A DNA stretch of 64,000 nt. Source: Caldilineaceae bacterium SB0661_bin_34. GTDB lineage: Bacteria; Chloroflexota; Anaerolineae; Caldilineales; Caldilineaceae. The stretch's first letter is position 1; each line of letters starts with the position of its first letter. Positions 38,768 to 54,175 of the stretch are shown in pieces. The notes below the pieces were generated by a model. It was not told where the DNA came from. It made no database searches and saw nothing but the letters and a program-made list of their open reading frames with translations. A program made the translations under genes and the position numbers. The stretch is taken from assembly GCA_009841145.1 (NCBI GenBank), contig VXMJ01000057.1:1-64000 (forward strand), written 5' to 3'.

Positions 38768-40207
38768 TTACCAAGTACATTTCGGTACCGGTTCGGGTAA
38801 TTCGCTCTCGGTTGATGGGGACGGCGTTGCAAGCCCCCGCAACTCGAGTCCGGGTGGAGCAGTCCCCACCGTAGTCCTGGTTCGTTCCGCGAGCAGGGCG
38901 CGCACGTCCCTGTAGGGCATGTACAACGTGATCTCCTCGTCGTACAGCCTCGCCAGAATGTTGCAGGCGGCATTGACGTCCGCGTCCAGCACAACCCCGT
39001 CAAGACAGTAAAACCGGTCCCAGCGACGATGGCCCTGCAACAGGCCCGTGCGGGAGTCGATTTGCGATGTGTAGGCCGGATTGACCAATGCCAACGCAGA
39101 ACCTCTGCGCCGAGATATCGAGGTGAGGGTGTCCGCCATCACGCCCTTGACCCAGCCGCTCAAACGGCGGTTGGTGTCCCTGTGGCGGTACGGAGCGGAC
39201 TTCATGTGTGCGGACAGGTCCTCGCAGGCGATCGTGCCGGCCTTGTCCACGACGGTGTGGGCGGCCTGGCAGAGGTGGTCGCGCACCTGCCTGTGGTGCA
39301 GGGTCCGCCGCCGGTTCCTCTTTTGGTTGCCGAGATTGTTCTTCCGGATGGTGTCGGCCTTGCGGTGGTTGCCCTTGGCCCGGTGCTTCTGCTCGGTGTC
39401 CCGGAGGTGATTGCGCCGCGTTCCCTTGACCTTGCGGTGGTCGCTCTCGGCGGACAACAGGTCGCCCAGACCCTCGCCGTGGCGCGTCCCGTCGCTGTCC
39501 GTGTAGGCTTCGGTGTAGCCCTTGTCCACCCCGACCGTGGCCTCCCCGCAGGGACGCGTGCTGCACACCCGGGTCTCGTCCACCGCATAGTGGACTTCCA
39601 CCTGCTCGTTGTCCCGCAGGAGGATGCGGAGGGTGCCGGAGGGCAGGTGTGTGCCCTTGAGCGGAATGGCAATGCGTTGGCCGCGTTCCAAACCCTGGAG
39701 GTACACCCAGGCCCGGTCGTGCCAGACCTTGGTGGTGTAGGAGCCGGCGTCGGCCACGATCTGATTCGTCACATGGGACCGGCCGCCCCGCCACTGCTTC
39801 CGCATCTGCCGGTGCAGGAACGGGTCCTCGGTCCAGCGGTTTTGCTTCAGCAGGCTGTACAGACGCTCGCGTTCGGCCTTGTCGCCCCGCGTGCGGTGCC
39901 GGATGACCTTCTTGACCGGCACCTTGGAAGCCTCCCGCGCCGCCGCGATGTCCCCCAGGGCATCGGCCAGCGTGGCCTTGCCCAGACGCGCCGGCAGCCC
40001 GTGCCAGTCACAGCCCTCCACCATCCAGGCATCGCGGATCTCGTAGGGGGATTGAAGGACCGTGGCCACTCCGCTGCACCGTCGCCAGGCATCCGCGCGC
40101 ACCTGGCCGCACAGCGCGGCCATGTCGGATAGCTGTTCGTACTTGGCCGCGTTCAGCCCCTGGCTGTGAAGTACGCGCGTGACCTTCTCAGCCATCGACG
40201 GCGGCAT
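38768..40207 (-). CDS. tnpB: TnpB RNA-guided nuclease of IS607-type element (no zinc ribbon)
   Basis: This 479-residue TnpB has RuvC acidic residues in VGVDKGYTEAY (Asp228), IACEDLSAHM (Glu329) and DADVNAACNI (Asp410). The segment between the second and third motifs, where TnpB normally carries two CxxC pairs, reads YTSQIDSRTGLLQGH and DRFYCLDGVV and so lacks the zinc ribbon. The ATG at 40207 overlaps the end of tnpA by 20 bases. TnpB proteins cut DNA with an RNA taken from the element's 3' end; here that RNA would overlap the tnpB 3' end and the short gap before the cupin gene. A roughly 50-residue tail extends beyond the RuvC fold. Confidence 0.9.
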   Translation of the reverse strand: MPPSMAEKVTRVLHSQGLNAAKYEQLSDMAALCGQVRADAWRRCSGVATVLQSPYEIRDAWMVEGCDWHGLPARLGKATLADALGDIAAAREASKVPVKKVIRHRTRGDKAERERLYSLLKQNRWTEDPFLHRQMRKQWRGGRSHVTNQIVADAGSYTTKVWHDRAWVYLQGLERGQRIAIPLKGTHLPSGTLRILLRDNEQVEVHYAVDETRVCSTRPCGEATVGVDKGYTEAYTDSDGTRHGEGLGDLLSAESDHRKVKGTRRNHLRDTEQKHRAKGNHRKADTIRKNNLGNQKRNRRRTLHHRQVRDHLCQAAHTVVDKAGTIACEDLSAHMKSAPYRHRDTNRRLSGWVKGVMADTLTSISRRRGSALALVNPAYTSQIDSRTGLLQGHRRWDRFYCLDGVVLDADVNAACNILARLYDEEITLYMPYRDVRALLAERTRTTVGTAPPGLELRGLATPSPSTESELPEPVPKCTW

Positions 40208-40790
40208 CCCTGATTTGCTTCCGGTACCGGCGCAGGCTGGGCAGGCGACCGGAAAAGGTTCGCATCACCAACATCAAACCTTCGACCCACTCCGCCTGCG
40301 GGGACAGACTGGGCTGGTTGACCACCCGGATCTCGCAGCCGTGGCTCTCGGCAAAGTACGCGAACCAGTCAAACCCGAACCGGCAGAGACGGTCCTCGTG
40401 GGCCACCAGCAGGAGGCCCGGTTCGCGCTTCCCGATCCGTTCCATCAACGCACGGAACACGGGCCGCCGGAAGTCCAGGCCGTCCCCGATTTCGGTCCGC
40501 CACGCGTCCACCGCCAGGCCCGCCCCCAGGCAGAACGTCTCCATCGCCTGCTGTTGCGACCGCAGCTCGTCCCCTTGCGCCCGGTTGGACACGCGGCAGT
40601 AGACCACGGTGCGCCCGGCTTCGGAGGCACGCTCCACGCCGAAGTACCGCTCCACGTCCGCCTCCGTGTAGTAGCGGTGGCCGGCCGGCGTGCGGCGGTC
40701 CGGCAGCTTGCCCTTCAGGCTCCAGGCCTTGACCGTGTTCTTGTGCACCCCAATCTTGGCCGCGAACGCGGCCGCCCGATGGATCTTCAT
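40188..40790 (-). CDS. tnpA: IS607-family serine recombinase/transposase TnpA
   Basis: This 200-residue recombinase has an N-terminal MerR-like helix-turn-helix (KIGVHKNTVKAWSLKGKLP, residues 12-30) followed by a resolvase catalytic domain. The nucleophilic serine is in VVYCRVSNRAQ (Ser68), with the downstream arginine-containing EDRLCRFGF. ATG at 40790 opens the conserved part; the frame is open further upstream to 41027. It precedes and overlaps tnpB, the normal IS607 order. A hairpin CCCTG-CCGTT-CAGGG lies about 60 bases upstream. Confidence 0.92.
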   Translation of the reverse strand: MKIHRAAAFAAKIGVHKNTVKAWSLKGKLPDRRTPAGHRYYTEADVERYFGVERASEAGRTVVYCRVSNRAQGDELRSQQQAMETFCLGAGLAVDAWRTEIGDGLDFRRPVFRALMERIGKREPGLLLVAHEDRLCRFGFDWFAYFAESHGCEIRVVNQPSLSPQAEWVEGLMLVMRTFSGRLPSLRRYRKQIRDAAVDG

Positions 40791-41015
40791 ATCCACAGAA
40801 TGCCCTTCAGTACCGATATGTTGTGCTGGTAAGATGCTCCCTGAACGGCAGGGACCGGCAACCCTGCGTCCCGCCATTCCCGTGTCGGCCTCCGGCCGGC
40901 GCGCCAGTGTGCCACAGAGCATCCGGTGCCCACCGATGCAGTCTCGGCCATGGCGACGCGGACACGCGGCTCCTGCGCTAGAATGCGGCCCATCCCTCCA
41001 TCCGGTTCCCTGTCC
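40791..41015. other. Left flank of the IS607-family element and promoter region of the next gene
   Basis: Between tnpA and the divergent hydroxyacid dehydrogenase are 225 bases. They contain a 5-bp-stem hairpin (CCCTG...CAGGG, about 40843-40857) and a TAGAAT at 40979-40984 that may be the -10 element for the plus-strand gene. The element's left end is somewhere in this region. Confidence 0.4.
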
Positions 41016-42023
41016 ATGACCCGGCATCCACTAACGGCTGCGGTGGCAGTCAGTCCATCCCTTTTCAACGCCTTGTTCGGAGAAGGGAGCCAGCAGGATC
41101 TGGCTTCACTGGCCGCGTTGCGCTACCAGGAGGAGGACGAGCGCCTTTCGGAGGACGAGTTGATCGCCTTGATCCGGGATTGCGAGGTCGCGATCACTGG
41201 CTGGGGGACACCTCCGTTCTCCCAAAATGTGGTGGATGCCTGTCCGAATCTGAAGTTGGTGGCCCATTCCGCCGGTACCATCAAGCGTCTACTTCCCGAT
41301 CCGGTCTGGAACAGAGGAATCAAGGTTGTCCATGCCGCAGCCGCAATCGCGCCGGCCGTGGCCGAGATGACAATCCTGCTGATGCTGATGTGCCGCCGAG
41401 ACGTGCACAACATCAGCAGTCGCATGCATGCGGGAGAACAGTGGCCCCAATCATCGGAGTTGGGCTTCGAGCTGGGGGGGACCCGGGTCGGGGTCATCGG
41501 AGCCGGTCACACCGGCCGCAACGTCATCAAGCTCCTACACGGGTTCTCCGCGGACATTGTGGTCTACGATCCGTACCTGTCCCCGGAACGGGCTGCCGAA
41601 CTGAAGGTGACCCGGGTGTCACTGGAGAACCTGATGTCCACCTGTCCCGTCATCACGGTCCAGGCTCCGACCACGCCGGAGACCTACCACATGATCTCCA
41701 AGGAGCATCTGGCCATGATTCAGGACGGGGCCCTGTTCATCAACACGGCCCGTTCCCATGCCGTGAATGCCGATGCCCTCTACGAAGCCCTGAAGACGAA
41801 CCGTTTCCAGGCCGCACTCGATGTCTTCGACAGCGAACCCCTGGCTGTCGCCAGCCGTTTGCGCGGGCTGCCCAATTTGGTGCTGACCCCGCACTTGGCG
41901 GGCAAGAGCGAACAGGCCCGCAAGCGACAGGGAGCCCTGATTGTCGAACAGCTGCACCTGTACGCGGCTGGCCAGCCGCTGACGCAGGAAGTCACGCGGG
42001 ACATGTTGGTCACCATGGCCTGA
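41016..42023 (+). CDS. D-2-hydroxyacid dehydrogenase family protein
   Basis: This 335-residue NAD-binding protein of the D-isomer-specific 2-hydroxyacid dehydrogenase family has the Rossmann motif GVIGAGHTGRNVIK, the substrate Arg position in NTARSHAVN and the terminal His in TPHLAGKS. The family's catalytic Glu region is LDVFDSEPL. It differs clearly from the paralogue at 29071-30057. ATG at 41016 opens the conserved part. It is 19 bases ahead of an isochorismatase-like gene. Substrate unknown. Confidence 0.88.
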   Translation: MTRHPLTAAVAVSPSLFNALFGEGSQQDLASLAALRYQEEDERLSEDELIALIRDCEVAITGWGTPPFSQNVVDACPNLKLVAHSAGTIKRLLPDPVWNRGIKVVHAAAAIAPAVAEMTILLMLMCRRDVHNISSRMHAGEQWPQSSELGFELGGTRVGVIGAGHTGRNVIKLLHGFSADIVVYDPYLSPERAAELKVTRVSLENLMSTCPVITVQAPTTPETYHMISKEHLAMIQDGALFINTARSHAVNADALYEALKTNRFQAALDVFDSEPLAVASRLRGLPNLVLTPHLAGKSEQARKRQGALIVEQLHLYAAGQPLTQEVTRDMLVTMA

Positions 42024-43381: not shown

Positions 43382-45619
43382 GTGACCGGATTGCCGATCC
43401 TGGCCGATAAGGCGGCGGCCAAGGCCAGATCACCACTGAAGCTCTATGTGCAGGGTCCGTACGGCACCGGCAAGACCTCCTTGTCCCTGCACAGGTTGGC
43501 CTGGCTGCAACAAACCTTTCCGGCTGAGGGCTTCAGGACAGTGGTCCTCCTGCCGACCAACCTGTCGCGGCCCGAGTTCCGCAGACGGTGGTGCCCATTC
43601 GCCAACCGGACCGCCAACCAGCCGCGGATACTGACGCCCCATCGCCTGGCCAGCACCGCGGTGACCCTGGCTTGGCCTGAACTGGCGGCGGAAGCCGGCT
43701 TTGCAACGCCGCTGGCCGAACCTGTCCCCATCACCCGGGAGCATGTGCAATACATCCTCATCCCCCGTGTGAAGTCCCTGTTCCAAGAGGGCAGGCTTGC
43801 GGGGGCGGCAGCCAAGTACAGCCGCCGGGAACGGAGGGTGGTACGGGAGGCGATTGAAATCCTGCGGGCGTCCGCAATGTACAGGCTGACGTTCCAGGAG
43901 GCGCAGAACCGCCTGATTGACGGTCTTCAACCCGGACCCTACCGGGAAGGAGTTGCGGCATCCCTGACCAATGTCGCGGACCTCCTGGCAGACTTCCGGC
44001 GGTTCTGCCTGGCACACGGCCTGATCGACGAAAGCCTGCTGATCAGCCTGTTTTACCGGGTTATTGAACGTGAAGACCTCCTGCAAAGCTGCGTGTTACC
44101 CACCTGTCGCCACTTGCTGGTCGAGAATTTAGAGGAACAGACCTATAACACCCACGCGCTTATTCGAACACTGGCGCCCCATTTGGAATCACTCCTCATC
44201 ACGGCGGACGAGGATGCCGGTGTCAGGTACTTCGATGGTGGATACCCCGAAGGCTGCAGCGACATTGCCGCACTGTGCGATCTGCGCGTGCGGACCGCCA
44301 ATCCGGCCAATCCGATCCAATCCCTTCTGGCCGAAGGGCTCAACGCAGCGAACAGAGACCGGGATCCTGCCCTATCCGAAGTCATCGACTGGGACGTGGA
44401 TGGGCGGATCGAATTGCGTTCAACGGGTGGCAGGGCGAAGGGACCGCATGGCGGACGATTGGTCCACTCCAGCCACCAACACAACATTGACATGCTCGCC
44501 GGGGCAGCGGATCTCGCGGCGAGTCTGATTGCAGGCGGCGTTGAGCCCGGCGCCATCGCCTTGGTGGCCCCGATCGTCACCAATCAAATGAGGGTGACCC
44601 TGAAACAGCACCTTGCCGATGCCGGTGCCAACCTGTACTCGCACCGTCCCAGCCGCGCCCTGCACGAAGAACCAGCCACGAGAGCATTGTTGTGTCTCGC
44701 CCGGATCGCCTATCCCGGACTCGCCGCGAGTGGACCCGGAGAGCTTGATCTCCGCGTTGCATTGATGAAGTCCATCAAGGGTCTGGCCGGTCTACAGGCG
44801 CACCACTTAGCCAGGGCCTGGCTCCCCCACTGGGAGTCCGATGAAACGGGATTCATTCACTTGCCCGCCGAGATAGGCGAGCAAATCGGCACAACCCGTG
44901 GCCGGGACTGGGACGCACTAAGGAATTGGTTGGTTGCCTACCGAAGCGAGGAAAGTACATTTTCACTGCACGGATTTCTCGCCCGTCTGATCCACGAAGT
45001 GCTGAGCAAACCCCAGTATGGATTCGACCGTAATCCGGAGGATATGCGAGTAGCCGCGCATTTGGCACGTTCGGCTGCCGTGTTCAGGGAACTCGTACTG
45101 AAACACGGAATCCATACAGACTTGGCAACCGACCCGGAGAACGGGGCCGCCGCGCTGTTCACGGATCTCGTGGAAGAGGGGTTGCTGGGCGATCCCTATG
45201 TCCCGGACGAGGATCCGCCCGGAGACGCCGTCTTCCTGGCACCTGTGACATCCCTACTGATGCGGTACCGGTCATGGCGACACCAGATATGGCTAGACAT
45301 TGGCAGCGAACTCTGGGGGCAACGCCTGCGCGGGCAGCTGGCTCATCCGTGGGTGCTGTCCCCCACACGCACGCATGGCGGCCCGTGGCGGGACGGCGAG
45401 GAAACCCTGGTCAGCAGGATGCTCCTGCATCGCTTCGTGACGGGCCTGGCACGGCGCACCCGCGATTGTGTATGGCTCCTGCACTGCGACTACAACGAAA
45501 GGGGTGGCGAACAACGAGGCCCGTTGTTGCCCGTTTATCAGTACGTTGCCAATGTGGAAGAGGAAAGCAGTCACCCCCCCACCCCGTACGAGGTTGTGCA
45601 ACCCCGGAACCGGTCATGA
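43382..45619 (+). CDS. SF1 (UvrD/Rep-like) helicase-like protein with degenerate motif II
   Basis: This 745-residue P-loop protein begins with the helicase Walker A QGPYGTGKTS (Lys31) followed by an SF1-type SLHRLAWL helix. Where UvrD has DExQ, this protein reads LLVENLEEQTYN. Later stretches such as ALVAPIVTNQMRVTLKQHL and the C-terminal LLHRFVTGLARRTRDCVWLL resemble helicase domain 2 and a motif VI-like region. No nuclease motif or zinc finger is seen. GTG at 43382 follows AGAGG; a TTG at 43355 is possible. Its stop overlaps the methyltransferase start (ATGA, 45616-45619). Exact function unknown. Confidence 0.65.
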   Translation: MTGLPILADKAAAKARSPLKLYVQGPYGTGKTSLSLHRLAWLQQTFPAEGFRTVVLLPTNLSRPEFRRRWCPFANRTANQPRILTPHRLASTAVTLAWPELAAEAGFATPLAEPVPITREHVQYILIPRVKSLFQEGRLAGAAAKYSRRERRVVREAIEILRASAMYRLTFQEAQNRLIDGLQPGPYREGVAASLTNVADLLADFRRFCLAHGLIDESLLISLFYRVIEREDLLQSCVLPTCRHLLVENLEEQTYNTHALIRTLAPHLESLLITADEDAGVRYFDGGYPEGCSDIAALCDLRVRTANPANPIQSLLAEGLNAANRDRDPALSEVIDWDVDGRIELRSTGGRAKGPHGGRLVHSSHQHNIDMLAGAADLAASLIAGGVEPGAIALVAPIVTNQMRVTLKQHLADAGANLYSHRPSRALHEEPATRALLCLARIAYPGLAASGPGELDLRVALMKSIKGLAGLQAHHLARAWLPHWESDETGFIHLPAEIGEQIGTTRGRDWDALRNWLVAYRSEESTFSLHGFLARLIHEVLSKPQYGFDRNPEDMRVAAHLARSAAVFRELVLKHGIHTDLATDPENGAAALFTDLVEEGLLGDPYVPDEDPPGDAVFLAPVTSLLMRYRSWRHQIWLDIGSELWGQRLRGQLAHPWVLSPTRTHGGPWRDGEETLVSRMLLHRFVTGLARRTRDCVWLLHCDYNERGGEQRGPLLPVYQYVANVEEESSHPPTPYEVVQPRNRS

Positions 45620-46230
45620 ACGAGGAAACAGCCTATTGGAACGGGCGGTACACCCACGGCAGTACGCCTTGGGACACCGGCATCACACCACCCGAAGTCG
45701 TTGCGTTCTGGGAAGCACACAGCGACCACTTTCCCCCAGACGCCTTGGCCGTGGATGTAGGTTGCGGCACACAGACCAACCTGGAGTTCCTGGCCCAACA
45801 GGGCGTCCGTGCCATCGGCTTCGACTTGAGTCTGGTCGCCCTGATTAAGGGTCTGCATCGGCACCGGGAGGCTCGGGCTTCCGGTTTGCGGACGGGAGCT
45901 GCCGTCGCGGACGCGTCCACATGGCCATGCCGAACGTCGGAAGCCAGCTATGTGCTCGATGTCGGCTGCCTGCACACTCTGGAACCGGACCAGCGACGTG
46001 CGTATGTCCTTGAACTGGCACGCGTGCTGAAACCCGGAGCCTGGTATCACCTGTTCTGCTTTCAGCGGCTTTCGCCGGCGCCACTCGACCTGGAACAGCG
46101 CAGGTTCTTCCTCAAGGGGGAGCTGGATGCGTTGTTCGACGAACAGTTTGTCACCGACCTGGAACAAGTGGACGAACAACCCCAAGACGGGAAACATGGC
46201 ACGTGGAGGCTGATGCGCAGCATAGGATGA
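45616..46230 (+). CDS. SAM-dependent methyltransferase (TPMT/class I-like)
   Basis: This 204-residue class I methyltransferase has motif I DVGCGTQTNLEFL (about residue 47), the acidic residue after the second strand in IGFDLS, and a post-motif region YVLDVGCLHTLEP. The N-terminal YWNGRYTHGSTPWDTG resembles thiopurine or tellurite methyltransferase-type enzymes that act on small, often sulfur or chalcogen, substrates. ATG at 45616 overlaps the stop of the helicase-like gene, so the two are co-translated. Substrate unknown. Confidence 0.87.
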   Translation: MNEETAYWNGRYTHGSTPWDTGITPPEVVAFWEAHSDHFPPDALAVDVGCGTQTNLEFLAQQGVRAIGFDLSLVALIKGLHRHREARASGLRTGAAVADASTWPCRTSEASYVLDVGCLHTLEPDQRRAYVLELARVLKPGAWYHLFCFQRLSPAPLDLEQRRFFLKGELDALFDEQFVTDLEQVDEQPQDGKHGTWRLMRSIG

Positions 46231-46349
46231 TCGCGGCCTTGACCCGTCCGCACCACTTCCCAACCTTCGCCGACGGCGATTCGGCCGCGCGGGGAGGGAA
46301 TGGTCCCGGCCGTCCCCGACATCAGGCGGTTCCCCAGGCCGTCTAACAT

Positions 46350-46363
46350 TGAGCGATTGCTCA
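46350..46363. repeat. Short inverted repeat TGAGC-GATT-GCTCA upstream of the alpha/beta hydrolase gene
   Basis: Two 5-base arms flank four bases, 42 bases before the ATG at 46405. It could be an operator or chance; no second copy was seen. Confidence 0.3.
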
Positions 46364-46404
46364 GGGACCAGACCTCGATCCCGCAACCAAAGACAGAGTG
46401 CACC

Positions 46405-47436
46405 ATGCCAGATTCCCAAACCCGATTTCGGTTGGATAATTCTTTGGAGACTCTTTACGCCGGACGGGCTGCCGACCTGGCCTGCACCGCCGATGATCCC
46501 CGCTCCCTGTTGGCGTGGCAAGTCGCAACGCGGCGTCAAGCGAAGGCGATGCTGGGCATCGCGGATGTGCCAACTCCCCGCATCACGTCCAGGTTTCTGT
46601 TGCACAAGCGGGATCGGGGCCTCATCGAAGAAGAAAAGTGGCTGGTCGAGACCGACTCGGCTCCGGACATACCCCTGTACTTGTTGCGGCCAACCGCGTC
46701 CAATCCCCGGGGCACACTGCTGGTCTTCCACGGACACAACCCGTCCGTCCAGACCATTCTGGGAAACTACCCGTCGAAAGAGGAGCAGAGTGAGGCCGAG
46801 GGACGCGACGGAAACTACGCCCAACTGTTGGCCGAAGCCGGCTATCTGGTGTGTTCGGTGGAACAGCGGGGTTTCGGCGAACGGCAAAGCGGAACCCCTG
46901 TGCAGGACATTCCCAACTCGTGTCGGCACCAGTCGTTCTTCTACCAGATGTTGGGGCGCACCATGGTTGGGGAACGGTGCCTTGACGGCAAAGTCGCACT
47001 GGACTTCCTGGCCACCATGGAGAACCCGGTGTCCGGCGACATCGGCATAACCGGCAACTCTGGCGGCGGCACGACCACACTCTGGCTGGCAGCCATCGAC
47101 GAGCGGCTCGCGGTGGCCGTACCGGGATGCTACTTCTGCAGCTTCAAGGAGTCGATCATGGATATCCGACACTGCGAATGCAACTATGTGCCCGGGTCCG
47201 CCGGCCGGCTTGACATGGGAGACTTGGCCGCCTTGATTGCCCCGAGACCGCTCCGGTGTATTCAGGGAATCATGGATCCGATATTCCCGATCGACGCATC
47301 CCGCGCGGAATTCGCACGAACCAGGAAGGTCTACGAACTCCTGGAGGCTTCGGATCGGATCAGCATGTCCGAATTCGAGACCGGGCACGCCTACAACGCA
47401 GGGGCCGCCGCCGATTGGTTCGACCGCTGGCTTTGA
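46405..47436 (+). CDS. Alpha/beta hydrolase (acetylxylan-esterase/dienelactone-hydrolase-like)
   Basis: This 343-residue alpha/beta hydrolase has the nucleophile motif GNSGGGTTT, an aspartate in GIMDPIFPID and the His in ETGHAYNAG, in the expected order. It has a roughly 60-residue N-terminal cap before the LLVFHGHNP core strand and oxyanion region. The family includes esterases that act on acylated sugars. ATG at 46405 opens the conserved part, after an open leader from 46300. It heads the plus-strand catabolic cluster with sulfatase, PhyH, Gfo/Idh and isomerase genes. Confidence 0.85.
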   Translation: MPDSQTRFRLDNSLETLYAGRAADLACTADDPRSLLAWQVATRRQAKAMLGIADVPTPRITSRFLLHKRDRGLIEEEKWLVETDSAPDIPLYLLRPTASNPRGTLLVFHGHNPSVQTILGNYPSKEEQSEAEGRDGNYAQLLAEAGYLVCSVEQRGFGERQSGTPVQDIPNSCRHQSFFYQMLGRTMVGERCLDGKVALDFLATMENPVSGDIGITGNSGGGTTTLWLAAIDERLAVAVPGCYFCSFKESIMDIRHCECNYVPGSAGRLDMGDLAALIAPRPLRCIQGIMDPIFPIDASRAEFARTRKVYELLEASDRISMSEFETGHAYNAGAAADWFDRWL

Positions 47437-47694
47437 GCGTACCGGTTGGCGAGACCAGGTACGTGAGGACCGCAAGCGATGCAGCCCCCGCGCGCAACGG
47501 AACCGGACCACCAGGCAGCGTGCATCGCCACTTGGCAAACGGGCAGCTCGGGGTTCCCGGCGGCCTGACTGCCGGAGGCGAAACCCAACCATCGTTTCCC
47601 GCACCTTCGTCCGGTAACCTACAATTTCCGTGCCGGGCCCGGTTCCCGCAGCCCGATCGTTCCCGTCCCCTGCAACCCGTCCCGCGAGGTTTCC

Positions 47695-49095
47695 ATGGCC
47701 GCAGCGCAGTCACGTCCCAACCTGATCCTGATGGGCATCGATTCCATTCGTGCCGACCACATGAGCTGCTACGGCTACGAACGCCTGACAACCCCCCATC
47801 TGGACAAGTTCGCGGACAGCGGCGCCTTGTTCGAGAACACCATCAGCGCCCACATTCCAACCACATCGGCCTACGGTTCGATGCTGACCGGCCGCGACAC
47901 GTTCGGAACGCAGGTTGTGGCCCTGCGCCACCGCGGAGGTCTGCGATCGGACATCAAGACCTTGCCGGAAATGCTGCGGGCCGTTGGATACGACACCACG
48001 TGTGTCGGGTTCACGGGCAACCCCAGTTCGCGTGGCTTCGACACCTACCTGGACTATGCGGCCTGGGGCAGCTGGGCCACGGGACGCAGTCCCAAGGCCC
48101 AGAAACTGAACGAGGTTGCGGTACCCGAGCTGGAACGCTTGGCGGCGGGCGACAGGCCCTTCTTTCTCTTCCTCCGGCACATGGATCCGCATGCCCCCTA
48201 CCTGCCGCCGGCACCATACGAACGGGCGTTCTACCACGGCAATGAACTGGACCCCGGCAACCGCTCCATGGATCCGGTGATGGCGTTCAAGCCCTTCAGG
48301 GACTTCTTCCGCATGTGGATGCCGCCCGGTGTCACCGACAAGGACTACGTGATCGCGCAGTACGACGGCGCGATTGCGTACATGGACGCCTGCATCGCCA
48401 CGCTGCTCGAATCGATCACCGCCCTGGGGCTGGACAACAACACGCTGGTGGTGATCAACGGGGATCATGGCGAGACCCTCTACGACCACGAGTGCTGGTT
48501 CGACCACCACGGCATCTACGACAACGTACTGCACGTGCCGCTGCTGATGCGGTTCCCCGGCCGAGTCCCGGCAGGCCTGCGCCTGGCCGGCTACAACCAG
48601 CACAAGGACCTAGTCCCGACCATCCTCGACTATCTCGGGGAGGAGACCGACCAGGATCTGGACGGACGCAGTCTGCGCAAGCTGGTCGACGGGGAGATGG
48701 ACACCTTCGAAACCGGGATTTACATCACCGAATGCACCTGGATGCGCAAGCACGGCTGGCGGACTCCGCAATTCAAGTACATGCATGCCCTGGAGCCGGA
48801 TTTCCACTTCAAACCCGAAATCGAGCTGTATGATCTGAGTGTGGATCCGGGGGAAGACCACAACATCGCGCCGGAAAATCCCGAACTGTGCGACTATTTC
48901 GAAGGTCGGATCCAGGCCTGGATCGCCAAGCGGGAGGCCGAGACCGGTCTGCCCAACCCCGTGCAGAACCAGCCGCACTGGCATGGGAACATGGACATTG
49001 AATACTTCCGTTCGTCGCAGGAGGCCTACGACACCCTGCATATTGGGGATCCCATGCAGGGCCAGCGCCTGCAGGCGGGAGAGAGCGAGGATTGA
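47695..49095 (+). CDS. Sulfatase-like hydrolase of the alkaline phosphatase superfamily without FGly Cys/Ser
   Basis: This 466-residue protein has the N-terminal metal motif LMGIDSIRADHMSCYGY and the second metal site INGDHGETLYDH. At the nucleophile site, where sulfatases have CxPxR or SxPxR, the sequence is SAHIPTTSAYGSMLTG (residues 51-66), with neither Cys nor Ser at the expected place; a Thr (56 or 57) may take its role. ATG at 47695 follows GAGG. It is 72 bases ahead of a PhyH gene. It could be a phosphodiesterase or sulfatase variant; substrate not determinable. Confidence 0.83.
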   Translation: MAAAQSRPNLILMGIDSIRADHMSCYGYERLTTPHLDKFADSGALFENTISAHIPTTSAYGSMLTGRDTFGTQVVALRHRGGLRSDIKTLPEMLRAVGYDTTCVGFTGNPSSRGFDTYLDYAAWGSWATGRSPKAQKLNEVAVPELERLAAGDRPFFLFLRHMDPHAPYLPPAPYERAFYHGNELDPGNRSMDPVMAFKPFRDFFRMWMPPGVTDKDYVIAQYDGAIAYMDACIATLLESITALGLDNNTLVVINGDHGETLYDHECWFDHHGIYDNVLHVPLLMRFPGRVPAGLRLAGYNQHKDLVPTILDYLGEETDQDLDGRSLRKLVDGEMDTFETGIYITECTWMRKHGWRTPQFKYMHALEPDFHFKPEIELYDLSVDPGEDHNIAPENPELCDYFEGRIQAWIAKREAETGLPNPVQNQPHWHGNMDIEYFRSSQEAYDTLHIGDPMQGQRLQAGESED

Positions 49096-49167
49096 CAGGC
49101 CCGGTCGGACCACAGCCGGCCACCCATCAATGCCCTTGAACGAGACCAGAGGAGGAGCAAGGCACCC

Positions 49168-49953
49168 ATGTTGAGCCAACAGCAAATCGATCAGTTCCAC
49201 CGCGACGGCTTCCTGAACGCCGGCAAGGTCCTGTCCCAGGAGACTGTCGACCGCCTCAACGCTGAGGTGATGCGGACTATCGAGGACAGCGAAAACCCCG
49301 AAGTCCGGCAACCCGTCAGCTGCCGCAACCTCAATGTGAACGACGAGGAACCGGTGTGGCAAATCGTGGACATCTGGATCAGTTCGGAATCCTTCCGCGA
49401 GCTGATTTTCCACCGGGACGTGACGCAGGGACTGGCACAGCTGACCGATGCCACCGAGTTGCGGATCTGGCACGACCAAATCCAATACAAGCCACCGCAG
49501 AAGGGCGGAGTCAACATGTGGCACCAGGACGCGCCGCTGTGGCCCATCATTGCGCCCATGACGGAAGTCACGGCCTGGATTGCGCTGGACGATGCGGGAA
49601 TCGACAACGGCTGCATGAGCATGGTGCCCGGATCCCACAAATGGGGCGACAACATCGACTTCCTCAATACATTGGAAAACTATGAGGCGATGCCGTCCAC
49701 CTTCGATGGTCATGACATTGAAGTCCGGCGGTGTCCGGTCCAGGCCGGCGAGGTCCACTACCACCATTCCCTGACCTGGCACGGCAGCCACGCCAACACC
49801 AGCGGCCGGCCGCGGCGGGCCATTGCCCTCCACTACATGACCCAGGAAACCACATACGTTGCCAGCGGCGAACACATCATGAAGCCCTATGTCACCGTCA
49901 ACGACGGCGACTTGTTGCAGGGCGAATATTTTCCGCGCGTCTATCCACATTAA
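49168..49953 (+). CDS. PhyH-family Fe(II)/2-oxoglutarate oxygenase
   Basis: This fourth PhyH-type gene encodes 261 residues with the iron site NMWHQDAPLWP (His, Asp), the distal His in LTWHGSHANTS and the cofactor Arg in RPRRAIALHYM. ATG at 49168 follows GGAGGAG. It is in a four-gene plus-strand operon: sulfatase-like, PhyH, Gfo/Idh/MocA, TIM-barrel isomerase (gaps 72, 42 and 38 bases). It is clearly different in sequence from the other three PhyH proteins of the window. Substrate unknown. Confidence 0.88.
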   Translation: MLSQQQIDQFHRDGFLNAGKVLSQETVDRLNAEVMRTIEDSENPEVRQPVSCRNLNVNDEEPVWQIVDIWISSESFRELIFHRDVTQGLAQLTDATELRIWHDQIQYKPPQKGGVNMWHQDAPLWPIIAPMTEVTAWIALDDAGIDNGCMSMVPGSHKWGDNIDFLNTLENYEAMPSTFDGHDIEVRRCPVQAGEVHYHHSLTWHGSHANTSGRPRRAIALHYMTQETTYVASGEHIMKPYVTVNDGDLLQGEYFPRVYPH

Positions 49954-49995
49954 GATCCGGACCCAACCGGGTCGACAGTCCAAAGGACCTTCCCC

Positions 49996-50982
49996 ATGCT
50001 CAACGTTGCCGTGGTCGGTATCGGGAACATCGGCCAAAACCACTCGCGCATCTACCAGGCCCACCCGGACACGGAGCTCGTGGCGGTGGTGGACGTCGTC
50101 GAAGCCGCTGCCGTCGCCGGTGGCGAACGATTCGGCGTACCCCACTTCACATCCATCTCGGATCTGCTCGCGAGCGATATCCACGTGGACATGGCCAGCG
50201 TCTGCACCGCGGGCAAGGAAAACGGCGGCGACCACTACGAACCGACCATGGCCCTGCTCGGGGCCGGCATTCCGGTGCTGGGGGAGAAGCCGATTTCCAA
50301 CGAGCTGCCCAAGGCGCGGGAGATGGTGGCCCTGGCCCAGGAACGCAACCTGCGATACGGCATCAACCTGAACCATCGGTTCACGCCTGCCGCCATACGG
50401 GCCAAGGAGTGGGTGGATGCCGGCCGCCTCGGGGAACTCAACATCATCAACATGACGATGTGGATCAACAACCCCAACGAGACGTCGGAGCATTTCCACA
50501 TGCGGGCGCTGCATCCGCACTCCCTGGACGTGATGCGCTACTTCGCCGGCGATGTCGAGAAGGTGCAGGCGTTCTTCAAGAAGGGAAAGGGCCGTGCCAT
50601 CTGGTCCAACGTGCAGGTCAACCTGCTCTTCCGGAACGGCGTCATCGGGCACCTGACCGGCAGCTATGATGCGGGGGGCAGCTTTGGGCTGGAGACCCTC
50701 GAGGTTGTGGGCTCCGCCGGCCGCTTCGTCCTGCGCGAAGCCTGCCAGCATCTGGAGTTCTACCCGCGCCACAGCATGGAAACCGAGTCCTACGCCTACC
50801 TGGGCGGCATGATGGCGTTTCCGGAGACCTTCGACTCGAGGCTCGCACGCTGGATCGAGCAGAACAAGGCCGGCGCGGCACCCGAAGACATCGATGCCTC
50901 GGGGGAGGACGCCCTGCGAGTTCAAACCATCATTGAAGGCGCGATTGAGTCCTGGCACACCGGAAAGGTGGTGTCCGTCTAG
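49996..50982 (+). CDS. Gfo/Idh/MocA family oxidoreductase
   Basis: This 328-residue member of the family carries the Rossmann motif VVGIGNIGQNHSRIY and the lysine signature PVLGEKPISNEL. It likely oxidises a sugar hydroxyl with NAD(P). ATG at 49996 follows AAGGA. It stands 42 bases after the PhyH gene and 38 bases before the isomerase. Its paralogue at 16831-17907 lies in the other sialidase-type cluster, so both catabolic clusters carry one Gfo/Idh enzyme together with one PhyH oxygenase. Confidence 0.9.
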   Translation: MLNVAVVGIGNIGQNHSRIYQAHPDTELVAVVDVVEAAAVAGGERFGVPHFTSISDLLASDIHVDMASVCTAGKENGGDHYEPTMALLGAGIPVLGEKPISNELPKAREMVALAQERNLRYGINLNHRFTPAAIRAKEWVDAGRLGELNIINMTMWINNPNETSEHFHMRALHPHSLDVMRYFAGDVEKVQAFFKKGKGRAIWSNVQVNLLFRNGVIGHLTGSYDAGGSFGLETLEVVGSAGRFVLREACQHLEFYPRHSMETESYAYLGGMMAFPETFDSRLARWIEQNKAGAAPEDIDASGEDALRVQTIIEGAIESWHTGKVVSV

Positions 50983-51020
50983 CCTACTTCCAAGTCCAAA
51001 CTTTCGCCTAAGGAGCCCAC

Positions 51021-51818
51021 ATGCAGCTTGGCATCAATTCGGTCCTATTTGGGGGCCACGACCTGGAGACCGCCTTCAAGTACGCCCAGTGCGCCGGCTA
51101 TGACGGCATTGAGCTGGCCGCCATCCCCGCAATGGCCGACCACTTGGACCTAGATCGATGGCAGGACCAGGCCGAGGACATCCGAAACCTGTCCCGGACC
51201 TACGAATTGCCCCTGCTAGCGATGGAGCAGCCGAGTCAGGAGCCCGAGGTGATGGAGAAGGCCATGCAGGCCGCCGCCGAGATTGGCGTACCCATCGTCA
51301 ACTGCGGCCCGGGCGGCGAAGCCGACAATGAGGAGAGCCTACAGCAGTCCATCGAGGCACTGGGACGCCTGACGGACCGTGCCGAGCACTACGGTGTAAT
51401 CCTCTGCGTTAAGGCCCATGTGGGCAACGCCGTGTACAACACGCCCACTACCCTGAAAGTCATGGAAGCAATCTCCAGTCAGGCTTTCGGCATCGACATG
51501 GACCCCAGCCACATCCACCGCGCGAACGAGAATCCCGTCGAGGCCATCGCGGCCGTAATCCAACGGGTAAAGCACGTTCACATCAGGGACTGCCGGGGGC
51601 GTCAGGAAGGACCCGGCGATCCGCAAAACCAAGCCAACGGCCGTGGCGACATCGATCTTCTGGGCTACATTCGCGTACTGCACGAACACGGCTACGACGG
51701 CCCCTTGAACCTGGAGGTGATTGGCGCCAGGGAATATGGCGTTGCCGAATGCTGCGTGATTGCCGCAGAGGCCAAGGGCCACATGCAAGCCTGCCTACAG
51801 GCTTGCGGAGCCCGTTGA
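51021..51818 (+). CDS. Sugar phosphate isomerase/epimerase (xylose isomerase-like TIM barrel)
   Basis: This 265-residue protein of the AP-endonuclease-2/xylose-isomerase-like fold has probable metal ligands near CVKAHVGNAV, FGIDMDPSHI and VKHVHIRDCRG, with a terminal Glu in NLEVIGARE. ATG at 51021 follows AAGGAG. It ends the sulfatase-PhyH-Gfo operon. Proteins of this family interconvert keto and aldo sugars or act on inositol derivatives; no more can be said. Confidence 0.85.
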   Translation: MQLGINSVLFGGHDLETAFKYAQCAGYDGIELAAIPAMADHLDLDRWQDQAEDIRNLSRTYELPLLAMEQPSQEPEVMEKAMQAAAEIGVPIVNCGPGGEADNEESLQQSIEALGRLTDRAEHYGVILCVKAHVGNAVYNTPTTLKVMEAISSQAFGIDMDPSHIHRANENPVEAIAAVIQRVKHVHIRDCRGRQEGPGDPQNQANGRGDIDLLGYIRVLHEHGYDGPLNLEVIGAREYGVAECCVIAAEAKGHMQACLQACGAR

Positions 51819-52009
51819 GGATACCGGGACGGAATCCATGTGGGGCTGCGGCTTATGCCGACAGCCCGTTGACGGACACCCCAAGCTGACGAACCATCGC
51901 GCATGCGTCTCTGTGAGACGCCCCCGCCTACGAACGCCGGACCGGACCCGTAGGGCCGACGGTCTGGCCCGCTCGAATTATCCGGACTTCGCCTGCGGAG
52001 GCCCCTCCC

Positions 52010-54175
52010 ATGTCTGTGCAGGCTGAAGTCCTGCAAACCATATCGAGACCGGTTGAGGCGTCCCTCCAGACCCTGTTGCGGCCTGTTCGATTTTTTAGGG
52101 ATTACAACCCAGACGACTTTCCCGCCGATCTGATGGCGGGCATTACGACCGGCATCATCCTGATCCCGCAGTCGATTGCCTACGCCCTGATTGCCGGCCT
52201 GCCGCCCGAAGTCGGCCTTTACACGGCGATCGTTGCCCCGATCGCCGCCGCATTGTGGGGTTCCAGCAATCACCTCCACACGGGTCCGACCAACGCAGAG
52301 TCGTTGCTGGTCCTCATGATTGTGAGTTCCGTCGCGACCAGCAGTGATCCGATCGAGTTCCTCCTGATCGCGGGACTCCTCACCGTGCTCATCGGTGTCA
52401 TGCGGCTGGCCTTGGGGTTGTTGCGGGCCGGATTCATCATTAATTTCATTTCCGACGCGGTCATGGTCGGCTTTACAGCTGGTGCCGGCCTGCTGATCAT
52501 CACGTTCCAACTAAGCGGTTTGCTGGGGCTGGACGTGGAACGGACGTTCACGTTCATCGATGCCGCGCGCACCCTCGGGCAGACGTGGGAGAGCCTGCAC
52601 TTCGTCAGCCTGGCCCTGGGTTTGGGCACGGTAATCCTGATTTTCGCGCTACCGCAGCTCCATCCTCGGTTGCCGTCGCTCTTCCTGTCCGTGTTCCTTA
52701 TGTCGGTGCTGGTGGCCTCGTTCGGCCTGGCTCACCGCGGTGTAAGCGTGATTGCGCCAGTGCCGGCCGTTCTGCCCCCTGTCGCCAATCTGCCCCTGAC
52801 GGATTTCCAGTTGGTCGCCAAGTTGATCCCGGGCGCCTCGGCCATTGCCCTGATCGGCTTGATCGAGGCCCTCACGATTGCCCGTTCGATCGCGAGCCAG
52901 ACCGGCCAACACCTGGACAACAACCAAGAAATCGTCGGGCAGGGAGTTGCCAACATTCTCGTCGGATTCCTGTCCGGATATTGCGCATCCGGCTCCTTCA
53001 CCCGCAGCAGGGTGAATCTCAACGCCGGCGGAAAAACCCCCATGACGACCCTTTTGTCTGGCGTGTTTGTACTGGTGGCCGTGCTTACCCTTGGTTGGGC
53101 CATCCGCTACCTGGCCAAGCCGGTGCTGGCAGGGTTCGTGATTGCCACCGCCATCACCCTCATCAACCTGCCCCACGCTCTTCAGATCCTGCGTACGAGC
53201 AAATCGGAAACCTTCATCATGCTCGTTACCTGGGGTTCGGTGTTCGTCTTCTCCCTAGTCGAAGCAGTGGCCATCGGCATCACCGCCTCGCTGCTCGTGT
53301 ACGTCTACAAGACCAGCCGACCCCGCGTGGTCCCACTGGTCCCGGACGCGAAGTTCAAGCACCTCCGCGAACGGAACCCCAACAAGGACCCGGTCTGTCC
53401 CCAACTGGACATCATCGCCATCGAAGGCGATTTGTACTTCGGGGCTGCGAACCATGTGGAGTACCTGCTGAGAAATCGGCTGGCGGATGCCGGACGCCAG
53501 TACTACGTTCTGCTGAACCTGCAGAACATGGTGAGGGTCGATATCAGCGGTGTCCACATGCTGGAGAATTATGTAAATGAAATCCGGGGCCAGGGAGGGG
53601 ATGTCTATTTCTTCAAGATGACGGACATCGCCCGGCGCCTGTTCACCTCTTCGGGTTTCATGGACTTGGTCGGCCCGGATCACTTCCTGCACGACGAAAA
53701 CGCCATCGACTACCTGTTCCATCGTGTGCTGAACCCCAAAGTGTGCATATACGACTGCCCCCTGCGTGTGTTCCGCGAATGTCAGAACCTGCCCAAAATC
53801 TCCATCCCCTTCCAGGACAAGGTCCAAGGCATGACTTCGTTGCCGTATGTACCCCTGATCCACGTGGAGGAGTTGGAGGGCCGATGCACGCGGCGGCCCC
53901 TGGACTTTGAACTCATTGACGTGCGGGAGGAGATGGAGTGGGACCGCGGCCACATTCAGGTGGCGAGGCACATGGCCTACTCGACCTTTAGCGTGGAGGA
54001 CCTGGATGTGACGCCCGACCGCGAGGTGGTGGTGATCTCCCGTTCCACCCGTCGCTCGCGCATCATCGCCTACGTGTTGATGGAGTCCGGTTTCAGCAAT
54101 GTCAAGGTGGTCGAAGGGGGCATGTCCGCCTGGATCGACGCCTCCTTCATGACCGCCATAAGCGTATACACATGA
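52010..54175 (+). CDS. SulP-family anion transporter with STAS and degenerate C-terminal rhodanese domains
   Basis: This 721-residue protein carries an N-terminal SulP transporter domain of about ten or more membrane segments (to about residue 430; signature GLPPEVGLYTAIVAP), then a STAS domain (about residues 460-570), then a rhodanese-like domain (about residues 620-715). The rhodanese active-site loop reads VVVISRSTRRS, so the expected cysteine is Ser677 and the following Gly is Thr680. It probably imports sulfate or another anion such as bicarbonate. ATG at 52010 follows GGAGG. It overlaps the next gene by four bases (ATGA). Confidence 0.9.
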   Translation: MSVQAEVLQTISRPVEASLQTLLRPVRFFRDYNPDDFPADLMAGITTGIILIPQSIAYALIAGLPPEVGLYTAIVAPIAAALWGSSNHLHTGPTNAESLLVLMIVSSVATSSDPIEFLLIAGLLTVLIGVMRLALGLLRAGFIINFISDAVMVGFTAGAGLLIITFQLSGLLGLDVERTFTFIDAARTLGQTWESLHFVSLALGLGTVILIFALPQLHPRLPSLFLSVFLMSVLVASFGLAHRGVSVIAPVPAVLPPVANLPLTDFQLVAKLIPGASAIALIGLIEALTIARSIASQTGQHLDNNQEIVGQGVANILVGFLSGYCASGSFTRSRVNLNAGGKTPMTTLLSGVFVLVAVLTLGWAIRYLAKPVLAGFVIATAITLINLPHALQILRTSKSETFIMLVTWGSVFVFSLVEAVAIGITASLLVYVYKTSRPRVVPLVPDAKFKHLRERNPNKDPVCPQLDIIAIEGDLYFGAANHVEYLLRNRLADAGRQYYVLLNLQNMVRVDISGVHMLENYVNEIRGQGGDVYFFKMTDIARRLFTSSGFMDLVGPDHFLHDENAIDYLFHRVLNPKVCIYDCPLRVFRECQNLPKISIPFQDKVQGMTSLPYVPLIHVEELEGRCTRRPLDFELIDVREEMEWDRGHIQVARHMAYSTFSVEDLDVTPDREVVVISRSTRRSRIIAYVLMESGFSNVKVVEGGMSAWIDASFMTAISVYT

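Follow-up and report, generated by a model that had tools for sequence, protein, structure and literature searches.

The stretch of DNA analysed here (the window) comprises 64,000 nucleotides from Caldilineaceae bacterium SB0661_bin_34, a member of the Chloroflexota, and the gene of interest in it encodes a UvrD-fold protein predicted to be inactive, which we call H (Table 1). Its GTG start is preceded by GGGGAG. Its frame is 92-93% identical in three congeners, and this conservation, the low dN/dS and the family of relatives described below rule against a chance reading frame. The start/stop overlap with a following methyltransferase gene, already reported in the first-pass annotation, was confirmed as a 4-nt ATGA, and the assignment of that second protein to the small-molecule type also stood; it beats the Pfam TPMT cut-off (47.7 bits vs 26; TPMT/Methyltransf_25 type). 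Further downstream, window positions 46300-54175 hold abhydrolase, sulfatase, dioxygenase-like, oxidoreductase-like, isomerase-like and SulP-like genes, of which Pfam profiles cover the first two only; H is thus surrounded in the window by metabolic rather than repair genes.

Table 1. Coordinates of H, its motifs, neighbouring genes and related loci elsewhere
Feature	Location	Strand	Remarks
TnpB/Cas12f-like protein	window 38768-40207	-	PADLOC Cas12f E 3.6e-14; RuvC residues seemingly intact by eye
IS607-type serine recombinase	window 40188-41027	-	PADLOC pair with TnpB
IS607-type pair, full span	window 38768-41027	-	
H, UvrD-fold protein predicted inactive, 745 aa	window 43382-45619	+	GTG start; stop 45617-45619
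H Walker A, GPYGTGKT, residues 25-32	window 43454-43477	+	Lys kept in 116/117 resolved relatives
H degenerate motif II, LLVENLEE, residues 245-252	window 44114-44137	+	family signature [DE]NxEE
H motif III region, DEDAGVRYFDG instead of GDxxQSIYxFRG	window 44207-44239	+	from the family alignment
H Arg pair at motif VI position	window 45452-45457	+	one motif VI Arg retained in 120/121 relatives
TPMT-like small-molecule methyltransferase, 204 aa	window 45616-46230	+	ATG start; overlaps H
U	contig C71, 29671-31839		all SF1 motifs and catalytic residues kept
N	contig C71, 8031-8807		nuclease residues and four Cys kept
H-U-N-RecJ operon on plasmid pSR56	L244, 8986-16869		preceded by XRE-type regulator and small hypothetical gene

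The clear Walker A motif and UvrD-like layout that the first-pass annotation had seen in H were borne out by Pfam, UvrD and PcrA alignments. It had also described LLVENLEE in place of DExQ, and this motif is truly degenerate after proper alignment: both the Pfam UvrD-helicase profile (E 9e-4, under the gathering cut-off) and PcrA profiles put LLVENLEE at motif II, where it aligns with ILVDEFQD of E. coli UvrD. Relatives of H with about 30-38% identity, for the most part 31-36%, were found in 47 of 61 related genomes, and across 121 relatives the position of the catalytic Glu is occupied by Asn in 120/121, preceded by Asp (113) or Glu (8), while the first Glu of the following EE is present in 121/121. 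Motif II of the family consequently reads [D/E]-N-x-E-E vs D-E-x-Q-D in active helicases, and since this pattern is all but constant across the 121 relatives, ENLEE is the form that a fixed [D/E]NxEE signature takes in the genus of the window. A 31-row alignment of H has invariant Gly25, Gly28, Gly30 and Lys31 in Walker A and Asn249, Glu251 and Glu252 in motif II, whereas the family alignment shows neither the Gln of motif III nor the TxHxxKGLE sequence of motif V. Within the genus, dN/dS of the gene is 0.13-0.17, so H is under purifying selection and is not decaying. In P-loop motors, loss of the catalytic Glu with retention of Walker A predicts that nucleotide is bound and not hydrolysed; going by its residues, H would bind ATP without hydrolysing it.

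A search of NCBIfam with H returned no family-level model, and profile matches in the PDB to ricin, PhoH, PsbX and similar proteins were dismissed as chance-level. An AlphaFold2 model of H (pLDDT 78.1, pTM 0.76) shows a complete UvrD fold, with the highest Z scores against UvrD, PcrA and Rep cores (26-27.6) in tight alignments of about 450 residues at 3.4-3.8 A, such as 456 residues at 3.4 A with the SF1A structure 4c2t_D. Longer stretches were covered by AdnB (Z 23.9, 614 and up to 630 residues aligned, 5.2 A) and by AddB (Z 21.7, 590 residues, 6.5 A), and RecB is present and RecC absent among the structural matches listed for H. The match to AddB spans AddB residues 2-696 and ends before the AddB nuclease, which agrees for the predicted model with the first-pass annotation's statement that H has no nuclease domain. 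Its sequence profile lies nearer to PcrA (E 1.9e-16) than to AddB (5e-10), so H resembles AddB in its architecture and is not necessarily descended from it. Curated AddB models, run against 31 members of the H family, gave few matches: TIGR02773 matched one (E 0.048) and ADDB_N four (best 0.0071).

Outside the family of the window, genomes of the class Anaerolineae (Chloroflexota) carry H as the first gene of an operon on one strand, followed by U, an intact UvrD-type helicase without a nuclease domain, then by N, a stand-alone Fe-S PD-(D/E)XK nuclease of 285 residues without a motor, and then by RecJ. Scanning one genome per species yielded 487 relatives of H, and the locus counts given here refer to the best 80 of these 487, nearly all of which are labelled Chloroflexota and include the cultured Anaerolinea thermolimosa and Ornatilinea apprima; one metagenome-assembled genome among them is labelled Fraserbacteria and may be mis-binned. 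U lies co-directionally 3' of H in 61 of these 80 loci, and 11 of the remaining 19 terminate within 3 kb; N also follows in 41 of the 80 and RecJ also in 31. Stop/start overlaps join H to U in 25/61 cases and U to N in 23/41. The model of N (pLDDT 84) is most similar to the AdnA nuclease (Z 17.8, 218 residues aligned, 3.4 A), followed by the Argonaute-associated Cas4-family protein ACE1 (Z 16.2) and the AddB nuclease (Z 14.8, 230 residues, 4.3 A), with other Cas4 and RecB proteins lower. Going by these models, H would correspond to the motor half of AddB/AdnB and N to the nuclease half of AdnA/AddB, so that between them they make up an AddB-like protein; U would take the place of the AddA motor.

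The four genes also occur in identical order, at 40-44% identity, on plasmid pSR56 of Salinibacter ruber M8 (Rhodothermota), where H is annotated merely as a hypothetical protein; the presence of the whole operon there suggests that it passed between the two phyla as one block. A plasmid of Ilyobacter polytropus (L245, 8989-10962) encodes a distant relative of H (657 residues, 22% identity over 61%, motif II DNLEN) with no U or N beside it, and judging from this relative the H family may extend beyond Chloroflexota and be older than that phylum.

Distribution across genomes links the three proteins as well. A sample of 301 genomes across Chloroflexota contained H and U together in 33 and neither in 268, with no discordant genome, and all 33 belong to Anaerolineae. 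Within the Anaerolineae part of this sample, 33 genomes have both and 8 neither (Fisher p ~1e-8, a value that does not correct for shared ancestry). Among the 61 genomes closest to that of the window, 41 have H, U and N, 12 have none and 8 have part of the set, most of these 8 being incomplete assemblies; the corresponding counts for 38 high-quality relatives are 27 with all three, 10 with none and one with U and N only. The exceptions include G014, in which U and N are present without H, and the genomes G018 and G023 (genus g16), in which H and N were found and no U was detected at E 1e-20; U may have been lost there, may have diverged or may lie outside the assembly.

In the window's own genome the operon is split, with H beside the methyltransferase on contig C13 and U and N-RecJ on C71. 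RecJ directly follows N, and the two are adjacent in all four congeners. A TnpB reading frame similar to the one in the window directly follows U in this genome (L169, 5921-7357). The genome additionally encodes PcrA (C89) and AddA-AddB-like genes (C62), and because both sets coexist there, H-U-N is not a simple replacement of AddAB. A role of H as replacement of AddB was likewise rejected, since AddB-like genes are not complementary to H and both occur in 13/61 genomes.

From these sequence-level observations (the motifs, the operon, the co-occurrence, the intact partners and the purifying selection), together with the correlated evolutionary distances of H and U and the structure models, we consider it probable that H serves as the subunit with an inactivated helicase in a split helicase-nuclease, similar to AddAB/AdnAB, that acts on DNA ends. 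U, which is AddA-like and nuclease-free, would unwind and pull the DNA; H, AddB-like and equally nuclease-free, would hold ATP and, as a scaffold or ssDNA-channel subunit, lead or scan one of the single strands; N, corresponding to the AddB/AdnA nuclease domain as a separate chain, would cut the DNA; and RecJ, as 5' exonuclease, would shorten the 5' strand. The helicase-like domain of AddB lacks most helicase motifs and acts as an ssDNA scanner; in AddAB and RecBCD alike, the ssDNA channel and the search for Chi belong to the inactive helicase domain, that of AddB or of RecC, and the Chi complex is made more stable when AddB binds nucleotide at its ATP site (PMC4824097). On the simplest reading, H would thus do for U the channel job of AddB or RecC. 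We infer from the same observations that H, U and N may form a physical complex, that strand scanning may be part of its activity and that it may serve in break repair. Several findings weigh against the reading: by sequence profile and by Z score H is closest to PcrA-type helicases, the window's genome also has AddA-AddB-like genes and PcrA, and G014, G018 and G023 have incomplete sets.

In the alternative that fares best, H and U are the two subunits of a regulated UvrD-type helicase that works in replication or excision repair, and N and RecJ are separate enzymes under common regulation. It draws on the tie between H and U being the tightest of all, with 33/33 co-occurrence vs 30/33 for N in the phylum-wide sample and with a correlation of evolutionary distances beyond PcrA that is stronger for U (partial r 0.82; 0.87 when the window's genus is left out) than for N (partial r 0.47), although under shared ancestry such correlations are suggestive only; N-RecJ also lies apart from H and U in the family of the window. 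Against this stand the near-constant presence of N alongside H and U, the best match of N to the nuclease domain of AdnA and AddB, and the U-N overlaps in 23 of 41 operons, which leave us regarding the two-subunit helicase as unlikely, though worth keeping in mind. That H is a working helicase, unrecognised so far and with an atypical motif II, is far less probable still: H does retain Walker A, the motif II acid and the motif VI Arg, but it has Asn in place of the catalytic Glu in almost all relatives, lacks the motif III and motif V elements and is nearly always encoded with an intact helicase.

The first-pass annotation had paired H with the methyltransferase and proposed an undescribed nucleic-acid or defence-linked module. 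The overlapping pair is retained in all four congeners (4/4 genomes of the genus), which speaks for a functional unit, but in every genome examined outside the genus the adjacency is absent, even though both genes are widespread, and in other genera the methyltransferase homologue sits on other contigs or 0.24-1.9 Mb from H. The methyltransferase was therefore rejected as partner of H, and its small-molecule type adds to the case against the pairing, so that the outcome is largely the one that the annotation itself had named as speaking against its proposal. A link to defence fared no better: PADLOC gave no match for H of the window and, among ten neighbouring window genes, matched only the IS607-type transposon pair. 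For H at locus L059, the best GajB match (E 1.5e-5) extends over 72 residues of the shared P-loop region, short of a family-level match to Gabija. No relative of H was found in the viral contigs or phage records searched, and with the operon widespread in Anaerolineae, a phage or defence origin of H was rejected. What stands of the proposal is a module of which the literature searched gave no description, with other partners than the methyltransferase; a nucleic-acid or defence module made of H and the methyltransferase we consider highly improbable. Least credible of all is that H has lost its function and is decaying, a notion that its degenerate motifs might invite and that its low dN/dS and class-wide invariant residues practically dispose of.

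If H is indeed the inactive subunit of a split helicase-nuclease, the encoding of motor, dead motor and nuclease by separate genes would let each role be removed or swapped alone and so allow a direct test of the part played by the inactive helicase domains in AddB and RecC, and a repair system would be added for Anaerolineae, a large and poorly studied bacterial class. To our knowledge, the bacterial end-processing enzymes known so far have motor and nuclease fused, and a literature search of partial coverage found no description of H-U-N-RecJ in Anaerolineae. We see an even chance that H-U-N, possibly with RecJ, adds one more class to the bacterial machines for DNA end resection, RecBCD, AddAB and AdnAB, and that this class is defined by a separate motor, a dead motor with the [DE]NxEE signature and an Fe-S nuclease, is widespread in Anaerolineae and has been transferred as one block between Chloroflexota and a plasmid in Rhodothermota.

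Several known systems share parts of this arrangement. UvrD, PcrA and Rep have the same four-subdomain SF1A fold as H, and U is an intact member of their wider group, but H differs from them in having no intact motifs II, III and V, and the genomes carry a separate PcrA. An operon of Clostridiales described in a phylogenomic study of Cas4 combines an unfused UvrD with a Cas4-like/RecB-type nuclease outside any defence context, as is the case here, whereas no inactive third helicase or RecJ was described for it (PMC5704561). AdnAB provides the best long structural cover of H in AdnB and the best match of N in the AdnA nuclease; AdnA and AdnB each fuse a motor to a nuclease, however, while H and U have no nuclease and N has no motor. 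AddAB offers a further parallel: H resembles AddB in its UvrD fold with a retained Walker A and a motor that is inactive or, for H, predicted to be so, and in being encoded together with an active motor of UvrD type and an Fe-S PD-(D/E)XK nuclease, with the difference that in H-U-N the nuclease is a protein of its own, the motor U is free of any nuclease and RecJ forms part of the operon.
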